NCBI GenBank assembly: GCA_949840905.1
Contig: CATKXW010000015.1
Coordinates: forward strand, 1 to 49,110
Length of the DNA: 49,110 bases
Reading direction: 5' to 3'
Origin: an uncultured Eggerthellaceae bacterium
GTDB taxonomy: Bacteria > Actinomycetota > Coriobacteriia > Coriobacteriales > Eggerthellaceae
Within the stretch, counting starts at the first letter, position 1; every line of letters starts with the position of its first letter. Below the pieces are notes generated by a model that saw only the letters and a list, made by a program, of their open reading frames with translations, was not told where the DNA came from and made no database searches. This document shows, piece by piece, positions 39,848 through 48,148 of the stretch. The position numbers and the translations under genes are program-made.

Positions 39848-40780
39848 CTACAAATGCCGCAGGTTGGTTCGGTAGTCGCGGAGGCGCGCTTCGCCGATAT
39901 CGGTGATGATAGCGTCAAGGGCTGAGATGAGCTGCTCTCGTTGGTCGGGTAGATGACCTTTCAACATCACGGGATTCGAGGCACCGAGCATGGCAAAGTC
40001 TACGGAAACCTCGAGATGGCCGACCAGCTCTTTGAGCTCCTCGTACTTCTCGGTCTCGCTCTCCTCGGCCCATCTTCCCGCTTCGATGTCGCGATGAAGT
40101 TCGGAGCTCTTGTAAACGGTGAGCATGTTCGCGCCGATGAGCCAGGGATTCGTCTGGTTGCATATCGCGGCTGTCGCGCGAGCTCCCTCAAGACCGCGAC
40201 CTTCACCGGAGATCCCGGCAAGATAGAAGAAAGCATAAGAGATGCCCGCCGCGTCGAGACGCTGGCATTGTTCGACGATGTCCTTCGCGGCGTAGCCTTT
40301 GTTCATGAATGAGAGCGCACCATCGTCACCGGTCTCGATGCCGATGGTGAGGCCATCGAAGCCGCCTTGCGCCAGTCGCAAGAGCTCCTCATCCGATTTC
40401 GATGCGATGTCGGTCACACGAGAAAAGCAGCCGATGCTCTTGCATTGCGGAAAATGCTCGTGCATCAGTTCGGCGATCTGCAGCAGATGGGGCGCTTTCA
40501 GTCCGAAGGGATTCGCTCCCGCAAGGAATACCCGATCCACCTTCGTCCTGCTCAGGCCGAACAGCTCCTCTTCTGCTCGCCGGAGTGGGTCGTGAAACCA
40601 CGTTTGTGCCTCGAGAAGGTCTGCCTCGATGTGTTCCATGGGCGCGGGGCGGAACTTGAAAGGGAGGTCTTCGTAGAGCGTGCAGAACTTGCATTTATGG
40701 TGAGTGCAGCCTGCGGTCGCCTCGATGATGAGCGATCCTGCCTCGTAAGGCGGCCGCCAGATGGTTCCGGTGTAATGCAT
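39848..40780 (-). CDS. Radical SAM protein
   Basis: The 310-residue protein has the cluster motif in ATAGCTHHKCKFCTLY (Cx4Cx2C), a spacing known in one radical SAM subgroup that also shows an IETGDDGALSFMNKG-type segment. It should bind a 4Fe-4S cluster and SAM; the reaction is unknown. It is divergent from an HxlR regulator that probably controls it. Confidence 0.85.
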   Translation of the reverse strand: MHYTGTIWRPPYEAGSLIIEATAGCTHHKCKFCTLYEDLPFKFRPAPMEHIEADLLEAQTWFHDPLRRAEEELFGLSRTKVDRVFLAGANPFGLKAPHLLQIAELMHEHFPQCKSIGCFSRVTDIASKSDEELLRLAQGGFDGLTIGIETGDDGALSFMNKGYAAKDIVEQCQRLDAAGISYAFFYLAGISGEGRGLEGARATAAICNQTNPWLIGANMLTVYKSSELHRDIEAGRWAEESETEKYEELKELVGHLEVSVDFAMLGASNPVMLKGHLPDQREQLISALDAIITDIGEARLRDYRTNLRHL

Positions 40781-40910
40781 GGGAAGCTCCTTCTTCGGCT
40801 GTTTCGTTCGCGGGAAAGGATGCCTGAGCAGTTCGCTCGAATCTAGTACTGATGTTTTATGGTGGTAGTATCAATATCTGCACCAATGGGCATGTACAGG
40901 AGCGATCTTC

Positions 40911-41264
40911 ATGGCTGACAACAAATTCACCGACACAAGAGCGCTCGCACGTTGCGAGTCTATGAGCCGCATGCAAGCGGTGCTCGGCGGCAAATGGAAG
41001 ATCCTCATCCTGTGGTATATCGCCACCTACGAGGTGCAACGATTCGGCGAGCTCATGCGTCGGATCGAAGGCATCTCGCAGTCCACTTTGACCAAGCAGC
41101 TTCGCGAGCTGGAATCCGATGGCCTCATTCATCGAGAGATATATCGCGAGATACCGCCCAAAGTGGAATACACCCTCACTCCTACCGGAAAGAGCCTCGT
41201 TCCCATCCTGAACGAGATGACGCTGTGGAGCCAGCAGTGGCTTTGCGGGGATGAGGGCGAATAG
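40911..41264 (+). CDS. HxlR-family transcriptional regulator
   Basis: The 117-residue winged-helix protein shows GGKWKILILWYI, RFGELMRRIEGISQSTLTKQLRELESDGLI and VEYTLTPTGKSL, all diagnostic of HxlR/MarR-like regulators. C15 in LARCESMS is at the position used for redox or aldehyde sensing in HypR/HxlR proteins. The 130-base shared gap with the radical SAM gene contains two TAGTAYTGAT-like words (near 40852 and 40867). Confidence 0.9.
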   Translation: MADNKFTDTRALARCESMSRMQAVLGGKWKILILWYIATYEVQRFGELMRRIEGISQSTLTKQLRELESDGLIHREIYREIPPKVEYTLTPTGKSLVPILNEMTLWSQQWLCGDEGE

Positions 41265-41313
41265 GGGATCGCGGGGCTATCTCGGGCGATCCGCCTTATC
41301 TGGGCATCGCTCG

Positions 41314-41343
41314 TTCGCACCGGTTCGCGAGCGTGCATATAAT
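41314..41343 (+). promoter_or_regulatory. Candidate promoter of the restriction cluster
   Basis: TTCGCA (41314-41319), 18 bases, then a perfect TATAAT (41338-41343), 47 bases before the first ORF of the cluster. Confidence 0.5.
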
Positions 41344-41389
41344 GAAGGGAGCCCGCGAGCAGTTCGCGAACATCATTCGAAGGATCCAG

Positions 41390-41614
41390 ATGCATATCAA
41401 AACGTTCTCATATCGCTATGCTGAGGAGATACTGCAACATCCTCGCTACCGGGTCGCCTACGACGAGACCATGCGCGTTTGCGAAGGTTGTCTCAGTGCC
41501 AGCTATGAGGGCGAATCAGGCAGGCTATCTCGGTTGGATATCGTTCAGCAGATGATGAACGCCTGCTTTTGGATCGCATTGTCGAATCTCGGCTGGGAGA
41601 GGAGCCTTCGATGA
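41390..41614 (+). pseudogene. N-terminal fragment resembling a BglII/BstYI-type endonuclease
   Basis: The 74-residue product (starts MHIKTFSYRYAEEILQHPRY) resembles the beginning of BglII-fold restriction enzymes, but stops after LGWERSLR, before any catalytic residues. AAGGA lies 7 bases upstream. The Sau3AI-like gene begins 12 bases later. It could be the stump of a replaced endonuclease or a small protein serving the system; the family call is from memory of the pattern and is uncertain. Confidence 0.4.
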
Positions 41615-41626
41615 CCCCGGCTGACC

Positions 41627-43075
41627 ATGAAGGGATACGGTGAGGGCGTGAACGAAGCATCTATGAGCGAGCTTCCCTATGATCGGACCAGCAAAGAATC
41701 TATCCTCTATTATGCGATGGGTTTGGAGGGGAAGACGCTGCGAGAGGCAGTAGGGATCGAGGCGGTCGAGAACCCGGCGGTGCGTAGGGGCTCATTAGGG
41801 AATGCGGTCGAGCTCTACTATTTCAAGTTCGACCCCAACAGTGACCCGAACGCTGACTTCAACGAAGCGGGCATCGAACTGAAGACGACGCCGCTCAAGC
41901 ACAACAAGCGAGGCGATCTGGTGTCGAAGGAGCGGCTCGTTCTTTCGATGATCAATTACGCGAATGTGGTCGACGAAACGTGGGAGACCAGCTCCGTTCT
42001 CAAGAAGTGCAGCGATATCCTGCTGCTCTTCTATCTCTATACGCCAGATGCGAATCCCGTGGACTACGAGTTCTATCTCGTCGAGCTTTGGTCGATCCCT
42101 GAAGAGGATATTCCGACGGTACGGCAGGATTGGGAGACGGTCGTTGAGAAGGTGCGTCAGGGGCGAGCGCATGAGATATCGGGAAGCGATACGCTGTATC
42201 TTGAAGCATGCACCAAAGCGGCCAACGCGAAAGTGCGAACGCGGCAGCCATATTCGGACATCCCCGTGAAGCCGCGAGCCTGGGCGCTGAAGCGATCGTA
42301 CATGACCGCGGTGAGCAGCAAGCTGTTGAAGGCTCAAGCTATCGAACGTGAAGAGGGGCAGCGGAAACTGCCGCTGCTCGATCTAGTGCGAGAACGCTTT
42401 AGGCCCTACTTCGGGAAGACAGAGACAGAGCTAGCTGAGAGGTTCGACCTATTGAAGCCAGGTGGGAGAAAGCCAAAGAGCCTGGGGGCGATGATAACCA
42501 AGCGGATCTTGGGCGTCGATGAGGATACGAAGATCCTCGAGTTCGAAAAGGCCGGCATCAAGACGAAGACGATGCGCTTGAAGCAGAGCGGCATGCCGAA
42601 GGAATCGGTGTCGTTTCCGACGTTCGACAACTTCAAAGTGGCTGAAACGCACTTTGAAGATAGTGACCTGCGCGAGCAGCTCGAGCAGAAATACCTGTTC
42701 GTCATCTATCGTGAAAGCGAGATGGATCCTGGCCGATTCGTCCTCGATGACGTGATGTTCTGGCAGATGCCCGAAGATGATCTTCCTGAGGCGAAGCGAT
42801 GTTATGACGAGATGCGGCGACGCATTCGCGCGGGGGAGGCTGAGAATTCGGTGAGGTCGAGCGAGAATCGGTGCTGTCATGTGCGACCTCATGGCAGGGA
42901 CTCGAGGGATACGGTTCCGACCCCGCAAGGCGATGAGGTCGTGAAGCGCTCCTTCTGGTTGAATCAAGCGTATTTGAAGGATGAGATCGAGAGAGGTTTA
43001 GAAGAGCGCGATCGGCGTGCTCCCAACTGTACCGTTCTTGGGATAGATTTGCCATCATCATGCGAGGGATCTTGA
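41627..43075 (+). CDS. Sau3AI-like type II restriction endonuclease (GATC)
   Basis: This protein of about 482 residues has two MutH-like domains, as in Sau3AI. The first carries the catalytic D...ExK set in DFNEAGIELKTT. The second (about 255-450; LEFEKAGIKTKTM) keeps the fold but lacks the full set, as expected of the DNA-binding/allosteric half. The start is uncertain: the ATG at 41627, GTG at 41648 or ATG at 41663 (MSELPYD), and family similarity begins at the last. The stop lies inside the methyltransferase promoter. Confidence 0.85.
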   Translation: MKGYGEGVNEASMSELPYDRTSKESILYYAMGLEGKTLREAVGIEAVENPAVRRGSLGNAVELYYFKFDPNSDPNADFNEAGIELKTTPLKHNKRGDLVSKERLVLSMINYANVVDETWETSSVLKKCSDILLLFYLYTPDANPVDYEFYLVELWSIPEEDIPTVRQDWETVVEKVRQGRAHEISGSDTLYLEACTKAANAKVRTRQPYSDIPVKPRAWALKRSYMTAVSSKLLKAQAIEREEGQRKLPLLDLVRERFRPYFGKTETELAERFDLLKPGGRKPKSLGAMITKRILGVDEDTKILEFEKAGIKTKTMRLKQSGMPKESVSFPTFDNFKVAETHFEDSDLREQLEQKYLFVIYRESEMDPGRFVLDDVMFWQMPEDDLPEAKRCYDEMRRRIRAGEAENSVRSSENRCCHVRPHGRDSRDTVPTPQGDEVVKRSFWLNQAYLKDEIERGLEERDRRAPNCTVLGIDLPSSCEGS

Positions 43076-43100
43076 TCTTCGACCATCGATCGGGTACAAT
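43072..43100 (+). promoter_or_regulatory. Methyltransferase promoter containing GATC sites
   Basis: TTGATC (43072-43077), 17 bases, TACAAT (43095-43100). GATC occurs at 43068, 43074 (inside the -35) and 43088 (spacer). The system's own methylation could therefore tune the gene. Confidence 0.6.
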
Positions 43101-43141
43101 GAAGCCACTATATTGGCACAGTAGCTAAGGAGAAACGTGCC

Positions 43142-44413
43142 ATGCAGAACATCAGGGTAGCCGAGCTCTTTGCCGGCGTTGGTGGCTTTCGGCTCGGGCT
43201 GGATGGATTTCATGATCCTGCTCTCCCTGAGTTCGAGATGCCGAGCGCTGGTCCTTTCGAAACCATATGGGCGAACCAGTGGGAGCCCCCCGGAGGCGAC
43301 GCGAAGCAGTTCGCCTTTAGATGCTATGAGGACCATTTTGGCGAAGGTTCCTGCGTAAATAGGGATATCAACGAGGTTCTCGACAACTACGAGGCCGGTA
43401 AGATCGATATACCAGATGTGGATATGGTCGTTGGTGGGTTTCCATGCCAAGACTACTCGGTCGCCAAGCCCCTCTCGCAAGCTGGTGGGATCGAGGGCAA
43501 GAAGGGCGTCCTGTGGTGGGATATCTACCGATTCCTTCATCTTAAGGAGCCGAGATACGTCCTGTTGGAGAACGTCGATCGGTTACTGAAGAGTCCTGCG
43601 ACGCAACGAGGGCGGGATTTCGCCATCATGCTCTCATGCTTGGCCGATCTGGGCTATTCCGTAGAATGGCGCGTGGTCAATAGCGCGGAGTACGGAGCAC
43701 CTCAGCGTCGCAAGCGCGTCTATCTCTATGCGGAGCAGACGCCTGTGACGTGGGATCTGGCAGATAGGCTCGCTCATGGTGTGTTCGCAGCGGCTCTGCC
43801 GATCGCGCCGTTTGCCTCGTTCGCGCAGTTCGAGATCCCCGACGACCCCTACGAGGCTACCAGATCGTTCAATAGCGTGGGAAAGGGGAGGTCGCCCTTT
43901 TGTACGGCGGGGGTGATGCAAGATTGCAACGTCGTGACCTTCGATGCCGAAGCGGCCTATGAGGGGCCGTTGGGCAAGCTCGACGATGTGATCGTCGCGC
44001 CCCACGAGGTGCCCGACGAGTTCTATATCGCGGAAGACAAGCTGGAGAAGTGGCGCTATCTCAAGGGTTCCAAGCGCGAGGAGCGCACCAATAAGCGAAC
44101 GGGCTTCACGTATCAATATTCTGAAGGGTCTATGGCGTTTCCTGACCTGCTCACGAATCCTTCGCGCACGATCCTCACGGGCGAGGGCGGTTCGGGCGCT
44201 TCGCGCTTCAAGCATGTGGTCGAGATCGACGGTCGTTTTCGCCGGTTGATCCCCGATGAGCTGGAACAGCTGCAGGGCTTTCCGCGAGGCTGGACGAATA
44301 CCGGCATGACCGATGGCCAACGGGCCTTTTGCATGGGGAACGCTCTGGTGGTTCGGATCCCGCATATGATCGGAAAAGAGATCGTGAAGAGGCATCATGC
44401 CGAGGGTCGCTGA
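43142..44413 (+). CDS. DNA cytosine-5 methyltransferase (M.Sau3AI-like)
   Basis: The 423-residue enzyme has motif I ELFAGVGGFRLGL, the catalytic GGFPCQDYSV (C102), ENVDRLL (motif VI), QRRKRVYLYA (motif VIII) and the closing GNALVVRI (motif X). The PCQDYSVAKPL context and the partner endonuclease fit GATC specificity, with the C methylated. AAGGAG lies 9 bases before the ATG. It overlaps vsr by 17 bases. Confidence 0.93.
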   Translation: MQNIRVAELFAGVGGFRLGLDGFHDPALPEFEMPSAGPFETIWANQWEPPGGDAKQFAFRCYEDHFGEGSCVNRDINEVLDNYEAGKIDIPDVDMVVGGFPCQDYSVAKPLSQAGGIEGKKGVLWWDIYRFLHLKEPRYVLLENVDRLLKSPATQRGRDFAIMLSCLADLGYSVEWRVVNSAEYGAPQRRKRVYLYAEQTPVTWDLADRLAHGVFAAALPIAPFASFAQFEIPDDPYEATRSFNSVGKGRSPFCTAGVMQDCNVVTFDAEAAYEGPLGKLDDVIVAPHEVPDEFYIAEDKLEKWRYLKGSKREERTNKRTGFTYQYSEGSMAFPDLLTNPSRTILTGEGGSGASRFKHVVEIDGRFRRLIPDELEQLQGFPRGWTNTGMTDGQRAFCMGNALVVRIPHMIGKEIVKRHHAEGR

Positions 44414-44885
44414 CCAAAGCCCGTCATCCGACAGGCGCAAGGTGCCGCGAGCGCCGAAGTCATCTTCTGAAGCGACGACGAAGGTGATGAAGGCCAACAA
44501 GCGCGACAACACTAAGCCTGAGCTGCTGGTTCGGCGGAGGCTTCGGGAGGCGGGGCTGGTGGGGTATCGGCTGCATTGGAAGGCGGCAGGGCGACCGGAT
44601 GTGGCTTGGCCAGGCAAGAAGGTGGCCATCTTCGTCAACGGTTGCTTTTGGCATCGCTGCCCCCACTGCAAGCCCTCCATGCCGAAGACCAACGTTGAGT
44701 ATTGGGTGCTCAAGTTCGAATTGAACCAGGAACGGGATATGCGGAAGATCCGCGAACTGGAAGAAGCTGGCTGGAAGGTTCATGTCATTTGGGAGTGTCA
44801 GCTCAAGAAGAAGGTCATCGATCGCACGTTCGAGGAGCTGTTGCCGGTGCTCGCGGAGGAGCTGGATAAGTCCCTGGCGCGCTGA
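44397..44885 (+). CDS. vsr: Very-short-patch mismatch endonuclease
   Basis: The 162-residue protein nicks next to T:G mismatches that arise when 5-methylcytosine deaminates. Seen: KANKRDNTKPELLVRRRLREAGL, catalytic Asp in GRPDVAW, and VAIFVNGCFWHRCPHC with the zinc/active-site His and Cys, then WECQLKK. Linkage to an m5C methyltransferase is the classical arrangement and independently supports cytosine methylation by this system. The start overlaps the methyltransferase gene. Confidence 0.93.
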   Translation: MPRVADQSPSSDRRKVPRAPKSSSEATTKVMKANKRDNTKPELLVRRRLREAGLVGYRLHWKAAGRPDVAWPGKKVAIFVNGCFWHRCPHCKPSMPKTNVEYWVLKFELNQERDMRKIRELEEAGWKVHVIWECQLKKKVIDRTFEELLPVLAEELDKSLAR

Positions 44886-44956
44886 GCGGAGCAGGCGGCA
44901 GGGGGACCCGGTGGCGGTTCGTCGTATGGTGCTTCGGTGGAGGAAGGAGAGGGTGC

Positions 44957-45349
44957 GTGGGGGAGTTCGCGGAGCGGGTGTTCGGGGTGGTGCGGCGTAT
45001 TCCTGCGGGGAAAGTGGCCACCTATGGGCAGGTAGGACGCCTCATCGGCGCGCCTCGGGCTGCTCGTTACGTGGGCTATGCCCTGCGGGCGAACCCTTCG
45101 CCGGGCGTCGATCCTTCTTCTATCCCGTGTCATCGCGTGGTGTTCAAAGATGGGCGCATGGCCACGGGGTTCGCGTTCGGCGGTCCTGACGAACAGCAGC
45201 GGATGCTCGAAGCCGAAGGGGTGCTCTTCGACGAAGAGGGTCGAGTGCTCATGGAGCAGTTCCAATGGGATGGTCGGCTCGACAACGACGACGCTTGCCT
45301 TCCTGGCATGCCGGCCGACCTCGATCGGGAGGCCGAACTGGCTGACTGA
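44957..45349 (+). CDS. MGMT/Ada-like DNA alkyltransferase domain protein
   Basis: The 130-residue protein is the DNA-binding and active-site domain only: FGVVRRIPAGKVATYGQVGRLIG, then IPCHRVV with alkyl-acceptor C58. The N-terminal domain of Ogt/MGMT is absent, as in short alkyltransferase-like proteins, but the acceptor Cys is kept (ATL proteins have Trp there). GTG start with AAGGAG upstream. Neighbours are all DNA restriction or repair genes. Confidence 0.88.
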   Translation: MGEFAERVFGVVRRIPAGKVATYGQVGRLIGAPRAARYVGYALRANPSPGVDPSSIPCHRVVFKDGRMATGFAFGGPDEQQRMLEAEGVLFDEEGRVLMEQFQWDGRLDNDDACLPGMPADLDREAELAD

Positions 45350-45412
45350 TCGCTGCAACCACCCTCATCTTTCGCTACCATCTCAAGGGCGATATCTCAT
45401 CGACGGGCGAGG

Positions 45413-48148
45413 ATGCGAGGAGTCATGGAAGAGCAATGGCACGACACTGCGGGTGCGGCCAGAGGTAAGGACCCAGGCGCAGGGTCGGGCGCGGCCAAAG
45501 GTTCGGACCCAGGCGCAGGTTCGGATGCGGCCAAAGGTTCGAGTGCGGACGAAGGTTCGACCGCGACCAGAGGTTCGGACTCACGTAAAGGTTCGGGCAC
45601 GGTCGAAGAGACGCGCGAACGCGGATGCCAGTGCGAGCCGAGCGCGATCGAAGTGCGGGGTGCGCGGGTGCATAACCTGCGAGACCTATCGGTCGATGTG
45701 CCGCTGCGACGGTTGGTGGCCATCGCTGGTGTGTCCGGTTCGGGGAAGAGCTCGCTGGCCCTCGGCGTGCTGTATGCGGAAGGCTCGCGGCGCTACCTTG
45801 AAGCGCTCTCCACCTATACGCGCCGGCGCATCGCTCAAGCGGGTCGCGCTGCGGTAGACGAGGTGCTCTACGTGCCCGCGGCGCTCGCTCTGCGACAGCG
45901 GCCGGGCATACCGGGCGTCCATTCCACCTTTGGCACCTCCACTGAGCTCTTGAATCATCTGCGCTTGATGTTCTCGCGCCTGGGGAGCCACTGCTGCCCC
46001 AATGGGCATCCGAATCCGCCGACCTTGAACGTGGCTGCGGAGCGACCCATCGTCTGCTGCGTGTGCGGAGTGGAGTTCTACGGGCCGAGCGCCGAAGACC
46101 TCGCGTTCAACGGTGGCGGTGCTTGTCCGGAGTGCGGTGGCACGGGCGTGATCCGTACCATCGATGAATCCACGCTCATCGTCGATCCGGACCTCACGTT
46201 GGAGGAAGGGGCGGTCGCGCCGTGGCGCAACCTCATGTGGTCGCTCATGCCGCAGGTGGCTGAGGCCATGGGCGTGCGCATCGACGTTCCCTATCGCGAT
46301 CTCACCGACCACGAGAAGGACATCGTGTTGCACGGTCCGATGGAGAAGCGCCATATCCTCTACGTCCCCAAGAACAAAGATCGCGCTACCGAATTGGACT
46401 TCACGTTCTACAGCGCCGAGAACTCGGTGAAGAATGCCCTGGCCAAGGCCAAGGACGAGAAGGGCCTCGCGCGTGTGGCGAAGTTCCTCACCGAATCGGC
46501 ATGCCCGGTCTGTCATGGCACGCGCCTATCCGAGCAGGCGCGATCGAGCACCATCGATGGCCGCGGCCTCGCCGATATAACAGCGTTGACCTTGGATGGA
46601 CTGCACCAGTGGTTGCCCACGGTAGCGTCGTGGCTCCCCGCCGCCATGCGGCCCATGAACGACGCGATCGTTGCCGAGATGGTCGAGCCCATCCAGCGGC
46701 TCGAGCAGTTGGGGCTCGGCTATCTCACCCTCGACCGCGCCAGCGAGACGCTCTCCAACGGTGAGCGCCAACGGGTGGCGCTCACGCGTGCGGTGCGCAG
46801 TCGTACCACCGGTGTTCTCTACGTGCTCGACGAGCCCTCCATCGGTCTGCATCCATCGAACATCGAGGAACTGCTGGGCGTGATGGATGACCTGCTGGCT
46901 GACGGAAACTCGGTGGTCATGGTCGATCACGATGTGGACGTGCTGCGCCATGCCGACCATCTCATCGAGATCGGCCCCGGCAGCGGAGCGAATGGCGGCC
47001 GCATCATCGCGCAGGGCGACGTGCAGGCCATCGAAGCTGACCCTGCATCGCGCATCGGGCCGTTCCTTTCGGGAGAAGAAAGGGTGCGCGTGCGAACGCC
47101 CATCGCAGCCGATCACCTCTTCGATGAGGGTACCATTCGCTTAGAGACCGGTCGCATCCATACGGTGCAGCCGCTAGAAGTGCTCATTCCGAAGGGGCGT
47201 TTGACGGTGGTCACCGGCGTGTCAGGCTCGGGCAAGACGACCCTTGTGCTGGAGAGCTTGGTCGTAGGGATGAAGGCGCAACTTGCTGGTCAACAGTTGC
47301 CCGACCCTGTGCGGCTGGTGGAAGCGCCGGGCATCGAGCGCATCGATCTGGTGGATGCCACTCCCATCGGCGTGAACGTGCGCTCCACGGTGGGCACCTA
47401 CTCGGGTATCCTCGATGACCTGCGGCGGGAGTTCGCGAAGCTTCCAGAGGCGAGAGAGCGGGGCCTTAAGGCGGGCGACTTCTCCTACAACACGGGTTCG
47501 CTACGCTGTTCCACCTGCGATGGCACCGGTCAGATATCGCTGGACGTGCAATTCCTTCCCGACGTGGATATCCCATGTCCCGAGTGCGGCGGTGCGCGCT
47601 ACGGCAAGGACGCTTACGCCATTCAGCTGATGGTAGAAGAGGGGTCGCTCGTCGAGGATGCCCCAGTGCGTACGTTGTCCCTTCCGGAGGTGCTGGGACT
47701 GACGGTGGACGAGGCATTGGCTTCGCTAGCGCACCTCAAGCGGGTAGAAGGGAAGCTGCGAACGTTGCATGACCTGGGGCTTGGATATCTCACCCTTGGC
47801 GAGGCGACCCCTGCGCTCTCGGGTGGGGAGGCCCAACGCTTGAAGCTGGCCAACGAGATGCGCCGCCATCAGGAGGATGCGCTGTTCGTGTTCGATGAGC
47901 CTACCATCGGACTGCATCCGCTGGATATCGCCACGCTCATCGGGGTGCTGCAGCGCCTGATCGAGCACGGTGCCACGGTGGTGGTCATCGAGCACGACCT
48001 GGATATGATGGCCAACGCTGACTACATCATCGACATGGGTCCGGGCGGCGGCGACCAGGGCGGTCGCATCGTGGCGACCGGCACTCCGGCCGAGGTGGCA
48101 ACCAACCCGTTCAGCATCACGGGAAAGTACCTGACACGCTGTCTCTGA
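45413..48148 (+). CDS. UvrA-like ABC ATPase without UvrB-binding domain
   Basis: The 911-residue protein has two ABC cassettes: Walker A GVSGSGKSS and GVSGSGKTT, signatures LSNGERQR and LSGGEAQR, Walker B VLDEPSIGLHP and VFDEPTIGLHP. Zinc motifs (VCCVCG...CPECGG; CSTCDG...CPECGG) are present. After the first Zn-like stretch (CPNGHP) it goes directly to the signature half, without the roughly 100 residues that bind UvrB in canonical UvrA. This is the UvrA2 pattern seen in drug-resistance or DNA-binding UvrA-like proteins. The N-terminus has a 4 x 12-residue Gly/Ser repeat tail. Confidence 0.88.
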   Translation: MRGVMEEQWHDTAGAARGKDPGAGSGAAKGSDPGAGSDAAKGSSADEGSTATRGSDSRKGSGTVEETRERGCQCEPSAIEVRGARVHNLRDLSVDVPLRRLVAIAGVSGSGKSSLALGVLYAEGSRRYLEALSTYTRRRIAQAGRAAVDEVLYVPAALALRQRPGIPGVHSTFGTSTELLNHLRLMFSRLGSHCCPNGHPNPPTLNVAAERPIVCCVCGVEFYGPSAEDLAFNGGGACPECGGTGVIRTIDESTLIVDPDLTLEEGAVAPWRNLMWSLMPQVAEAMGVRIDVPYRDLTDHEKDIVLHGPMEKRHILYVPKNKDRATELDFTFYSAENSVKNALAKAKDEKGLARVAKFLTESACPVCHGTRLSEQARSSTIDGRGLADITALTLDGLHQWLPTVASWLPAAMRPMNDAIVAEMVEPIQRLEQLGLGYLTLDRASETLSNGERQRVALTRAVRSRTTGVLYVLDEPSIGLHPSNIEELLGVMDDLLADGNSVVMVDHDVDVLRHADHLIEIGPGSGANGGRIIAQGDVQAIEADPASRIGPFLSGEERVRVRTPIAADHLFDEGTIRLETGRIHTVQPLEVLIPKGRLTVVTGVSGSGKTTLVLESLVVGMKAQLAGQQLPDPVRLVEAPGIERIDLVDATPIGVNVRSTVGTYSGILDDLRREFAKLPEARERGLKAGDFSYNTGSLRCSTCDGTGQISLDVQFLPDVDIPCPECGGARYGKDAYAIQLMVEEGSLVEDAPVRTLSLPEVLGLTVDEALASLAHLKRVEGKLRTLHDLGLGYLTLGEATPALSGGEAQRLKLANEMRRHQEDALFVFDEPTIGLHPLDIATLIGVLQRLIEHGATVVVIEHDLDMMANADYIIDMGPGGGDQGGRIVATGTPAEVATNPFSITGKYLTRCL
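45455..45598 (+). repeat. Four 36-bp in-frame repeats in the UvrA-like N-terminus
   Basis: The units encode AARGKDPGAGSG, AAKGSDPGAGSD, AAKGSSADEGST and ATRGSDSRKGSG. Each splits into two 18-base halves ending in a GGTTCG-like word. The disordered tail precedes the first ABC domain and is likely to vary in copy number. Confidence 0.85.

Follow-up and report, generated by a model that had tools for sequence, protein, structure and literature searches.

The window analysed here is a 49,110-nucleotide stretch of DNA (contig CATKXW010000015.1) from the 1.98-Mb genome of an uncultured Eggerthellaceae gut bacterium, whose nearest kin, as judged by its methyltransferase, are Eggerthellaceae and other Coriobacteriia. 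It holds a restriction-modification (RM) unit in which the genes for a restriction endonuclease (R) and a C5-cytosine methyltransferase (M) lie in tandem (Table 1). R is an equivalog-level match to the Sau3AI/MutH family of endonucleases, and its translation may begin at an internal ATG rather than at 41627. The adjoining C5 methyltransferase, with a methylase domain spanning residues 4–416 of 423, gives the pair the composition of a Sau3AI-type system (Type IIP, GATC, C5). In such systems, GATC is protected through cytosine methylation. As R matches Sau3AI at equivalog level, M very probably recognises GATC, and a relative of M (L114) adjoins a BglII/BstYI-family nuclease, which fits a GATC core. 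Depletion of GATC in the window (observed/expected 0.77) is uninformative as proof of methylation, as GATT and AATC are also low.

Table 1. Features of the RM locus (positions in the window).
Feature	Position	Strand	Evidence
TTCGCA-18-TATAAT, candidate promoter for R and the ORF before it, without GATC	41314..41343	+	consensus scan, 10/12
R, Sau3AI-family restriction endonuclease, GATC-type	41627..43075	+	NF040973, 417 bits (cut-off 300); PF02976 MutH; PDB 4pxg Sau3AI, E 1e-56
GATC site 1, 6 bp 5' of the -35 GATC	43068..43071	+	sequence
Predicted -35, TTGATC, holding GATC site 2 (43074-43077)	43072..43077	+	sequence, consensus scan
Spacer GATC (site 3), 14 bp 3' of the -35 GATC	43088..43091	+	sequence
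Predicted -10, TACAAT	43095..43100	+	sequence, consensus scan
Covarying hairpin, M leader	43114..43142	+	arms TGGCAC 43114-43119 and GTGCCA 43137-43142; Shine-Dalgarno AAGGAG 43127-43132 in loop
M, C5-cytosine methyltransferase, without N-terminal HTH extension	43142..44413	+	PF00145, 181.6 bits; TIGR00675
Vsr-type endonuclease, overlapping the end of M	44397..44885	+	PF03852; TIGR00632

Endonucleases of the Vsr type repair T:G mismatches that arise from m5C deamination. The vsr-type gene is followed by one for a methylguanine-methyltransferase-like DNA-binding protein (44957-45349), so that two DNA-repair genes stand beside the RM unit. The tetranucleotide CTAG, whose under-representation is often tied to Vsr-type repair, is strongly depleted in the window (positions 1-49110; observed/expected 0.49). 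Directly 5' of R there is an ORF of 90 amino acids (41342-41614).

Upstream of M, the elements TTGATC and TACAAT, separated by 17 nt, match the promoter consensus at 9 of 12 positions and form a credible promoter; the reading frame of R terminates within the -35, at the TGA of 43073-43075. The pattern TTGATC-(16-18)-TANNNT occurs only once on the two strands of the window, and a related pattern with GGAG downstream has a single occurrence in the whole 1.98-Mb genome, at M. The earlier note had drawn attention to three GATC sites within 24 bases, one of them forming the -35 itself, and both observations hold. Among the 279 GATC sites of the window, however, random placement is expected to produce 1.6 such triples and yields at least one that tight in 78% of trials (P = 0.78), so that the triple is not evidence by itself. 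Chance clustering, which the window alone does not reject, was rejected by the orthologous promoters.

The comparison began with 80 related M loci and was extended to plasmids of Bacillota, viral and phage-collection contigs, and more Coriobacteriia; the pattern scored was TTGATC-(16-18)-[TCG]ANNNT within 140 bp upstream of each gene. The conservation of GATC in orthologous promoters, proposed as a check in the earlier note, was strongly positive: the TTGATC promoter precedes M at 39 of 93 dereplicated loci and only one of 751 control ORFs (Fisher p 3e-40, with related loci not being independent). Another 36 loci have some GATC nearby, and 18 have none upstream. The consensus -35, TTGACA, was found at just two of the 93 loci, whereas 32 of the 41 M promoters with an exact 17-nt spacer (TTGNNN-17-TANNNT) read TTGATC, suggesting that a weaker -35 has been retained for the sake of its GATC. 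Among 69 loci with less than 80% upstream identity, the region from -90 to -35 of M contains 101 GATC sites versus 11.8 expected from locus density, and at least one site is present at 58 loci (control ORFs: 14% of 714). TCGA, the palindrome that ranks second, shows 41 occurrences against 25 expected. The enrichment is confined to M genes of this family: the TTGATC promoter was found at none of 46 R starts, and of 29 C5 methylases from the class, the 26 with 25–32% identity to M, or no match, all lack it. The three others, all with ~52% identity to M, carry TTGATC, although in L162 it is located further from the start. It is also present in family members that were added after the idea was formed (L163, L164, L165, L167, L168, L170, L174 and L178). 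Thus, as far as sequence comparison goes, the M promoter has a core element that shares bases with the cognate site, and promoters that carry GATC both as the -35 and within the spacer are kept specifically at the M genes of the family.

GATC could also have been kept for a reason other than regulation, such as unselected shared ancestry, a promoter preference of the whole clade or coding constraint on the C-terminal end of R. The overlap of the -35 with the R stop codon in the window would suit this explanation, as would the Collinsella group, in which GATC is found only in R coding sequence. However, TTGATC is independent of the arrangement of R, being present at 14 of 36 loci with R just upstream, 6 of 14 with R divergent, 6 of 14 with R elsewhere and 13 of 29 with no R in the fetched flank, which rules out R coding constraint as its cause. 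A clade-wide preference is at odds with the near absence of TTGATC from the control genes. As regards ancestry, the promoter is kept in Bacillota, in a SAR86 genome and in a Flavobacteriales genome; Bacillota plasmids carry TTGATC-17-TATAAT or TTGATC-17-TAAAAT (L114, L115, L117 and L118), and GATCTTGATC also occurs in Jeotgalibaca and Aerococcus plasmids. Between TTGATC loci with M proteins less than 50% identical, the flanks on both sides have fallen to the random level of 25–26% identity and the spacer to 30%, whereas the hexamer is kept. Its constancy in this comparison is fixed by the selection of the set, and the informative figure is the number of divergent loci that retain TTGATC: 13 of the 30 loci with less than 60% identity to the window M. 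Single-linkage clustering of M at 60% identity gives 17 clusters, 9 of which include a TTGATC member. Given that TTGATC survives where flanks are randomised, we see very little chance that GATC was kept for such other reasons. Nevertheless, the 18 loci without upstream GATC and the Collinsella group indicate that the device is not universal.

The additional sites of these promoters recur at fixed offsets. Among the 39 TTGATC promoters, a second GATC lies at -6 from the -35 GATC in nine and at +14 in fifteen, the window having both, and a further recurring offset is +27/28. Promoters without TTGATC often have a GATC that adjoins the -35 instead (L004, L113, L116, L121 and L172, the last with TTGACT). 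Fixed spacing suits protein contacts, and M, or an R that binds two sites, could sit on the GATC array as on an operator and sterically block RNA polymerase, methylation not being the signal. Direct binding of this kind would leave identical conservation. Moreover, R of the Sau3AI family possesses a further DNA-binding domain (the C-terminal half is matched by PDB 2reu and 7xm0), and autorepression by operator-binding methyltransferases is documented in other systems. On the other hand, methyltransferases of the SsoII, Ecl18kI and ScrFI type, which repress their own genes as is proposed for the window M, bind the operator via an N-terminal HTH, and the methylase domain of M begins at residue 4, leaving it without one. 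Many loci also keep a single GATC only, placed exactly within the -35. We therefore regard an operator-type mechanism as unlikely. As a separate observation, a conserved TGT(C/A)CC(A/G) motif is located ~10-20 bp 5' of the first GATC in L001-L004 and L007-L009, whichever R subtype is upstream; its only counterpart in the window is TTTGCCAT.

Methylation of the promoter by M is the reading that we prefer, and it has precedents. In CfrBI, the cognate site is located in the methyltransferase promoter, where, in the account of a review, methylation blocks RNA polymerase (Beletskaya 2000; Zakharova 2004; PMC12707154); the LlaDII methyltransferase is described there as reducing its own expression via sites located in the promoter of its gene, the effect being limited to M (Christensen and Josephsen 2004; PMC12707154); and M of AhdI methylates M-promoter sites that overlap the polymerase binding site (PMC5333194). 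The window resembles CfrBI, as the latter is summarised in that review, in having a cognate site in the methyltransferase promoter, but in CfrBI the two genes diverge, their promoters overlap, and a single site common to both also raises R, whereas the window has tandem genes, an M promoter standing alone at the end of the R gene, three sites and a methylase of the GATC/C5 family. The control proposed here is similar to the self-lowering of LlaDII through promoter sites, so far as the same review describes it. The recognition site of LlaDII differs from that of a GATC system. AhdI shares with the window the overlap of M-promoter sites with the polymerase binding site, but it possesses an additional C protein controlling R, and none was seen in the window.

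Of the two target cytosines in TTGATC, one closes the hexamer and the other, on the template strand, is paired with its G; both lie in the major groove that sigma region 4 reads. On unmodified DNA, either in a new host or upon dilution after replication, the M promoter would be open and M would be made. M would then convert the promoter sites to GATm5C, weakening the contact of sigma with the -35, and transcription of M would drop to a maintenance level, resulting in an early burst of M and a low output later. By analogy with CfrBI, LlaDII and AhdI, we infer that methylation lowers M transcription, and by the same analogy promoter methylation may balance M against R. R would be transcribed from its own upstream promoter, and because this candidate promoter contains no GATC, the supply of R is not expected to be cut along with that of M. 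The same promoter anatomy could instead serve mainly timing: sites left hemimethylated by replication would allow a single pulse of M in each cell cycle, with little steady-state repression. Unblocking after replication has been proposed for loops of the CfrBI/LlaDII type. Resident M may remethylate the sites too fast for such pulses to matter, and we find this variant quite improbable. In our estimate, the probability is about 0.7 that the locus is a Sau3AI-type RM unit in which the M gene is controlled by its own product via promoter methylation, and the interpretation offered in the earlier note is largely supported.

That note had also supposed that M and R are balanced without a controller protein, which agrees with the gene content: in the window, neither R nor M is adjoined by a controller gene of the HTH_3 or another HTH type, and none lies between them. 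The closest regulatory gene, for HxlR at 40911, stands apart and showed no link to the RM unit. The 90-aa ORF lacks an HTH, matched no family significantly and had no homologue at the other loci. A small HTH-like gene is found close to M in three relatives, namely L129 (HTH_3, directly upstream) and L120 and L124 (HTH_59-like, below Pfam's cut-off). L120 and L129 are without promoter GATC, L124 being a near relative of L120 that was not scored separately; this hints that controller proteins and promoter methylation are alternative solutions, in a sample too small for a claim. Boxes of the form GAAC-N4-GTTC, which resemble the Gram-positive LexA/SOS operator, were observed within the M promoter or immediately 3' of it in L164, L165, L167, L168 and L170 and in Rothia L046 (GAACATATGTTC) and L050 (flanked symmetrically by GATC). 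With up to one mismatch allowed, they occur at 17% of M loci versus 4% of controls. SOS induction of M following self-cleavage would make sense; LexA-type control of the window M was rejected, as there is no such box at its locus.

A second conserved element, overlooked in the earlier note, is a hairpin around the ribosome-binding site of M, which probably adds a translational limit on M. Its arms vary in concert among 34 distinct sequences (GGCAC/GTGCC, CGACAC/GTGTCG, GTCCAC/GTGGAC, GGACAC/GTGTCC), with 39 cells changed on both sides versus 15 in shuffled data and none of 500 shuffles as high, and sliding the partner arm abolishes pairing. G-U pairs are present, loops differ by 1-2 nt in length, and the 3' arm includes or adjoins the start codon. 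The covariation, G-U pairs and variable loop therefore favour an RNA structure over a DNA operator, short of proof. The predicted fold in the window is modest (-10.5 kcal/mol; z of -2.6 for the 35-nt core but only -0.8 for 54 nt), and a search of 40500-45500 against Rfam returned nothing at E values of up to 5. The hairpin sequence pattern was found at 31 places in 296 genomes and at none with the reversed control; M is directly downstream in all 30 loci read, and in the genome of the window the M site alone scores well. Four loci (L017, L025, L037 and L040) possess the hairpin but no GATC in the promoter, which shows that the two layers can be separated. Among the Bacillota plasmid M genes, (C)GAAAGGRYGTTCG is common over the Shine-Dalgarno just before the start (L113, L114, L117, L120, L121 and L127); this short inverted repeat or near LexA box is possibly the counterpart of the hairpin of Coriobacteriia. 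More tentatively, Sau3AI-family methylases might share a two-layer, protein-free self-control, in which a methylation-sensitive promoter built on their own site, ancient enough to be shared by Actinomycetota, Bacillota and other phyla, is combined with a hairpin at the ribosome-binding site through which M or the translating ribosome would cap synthesis; this is a possibility to which we give less than even odds.

While the principle is already known from CfrBI, LlaDII and AhdI, the Sau3AI-family version is a new variant. A partial literature search returned no report of promoter self-methylation for the Sau3AI family or of a hairpin at the start of an RM methylase, and a paper on Prevotella Sau3AI contains no GATm5C case. 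Promoter methylation has been described in a recent review as "apparently rarely used" in RM control (PMC12707154); given that the design was found at 39 of 93 loci of one enzyme family, with nearby GATC at 36 more and in several phyla, it may be common. It is understood for only a few RM systems how they can move into a naive cell that survives their arrival when no controller protein is involved. The covarying hairpin where M begins points to a translational step not described before.
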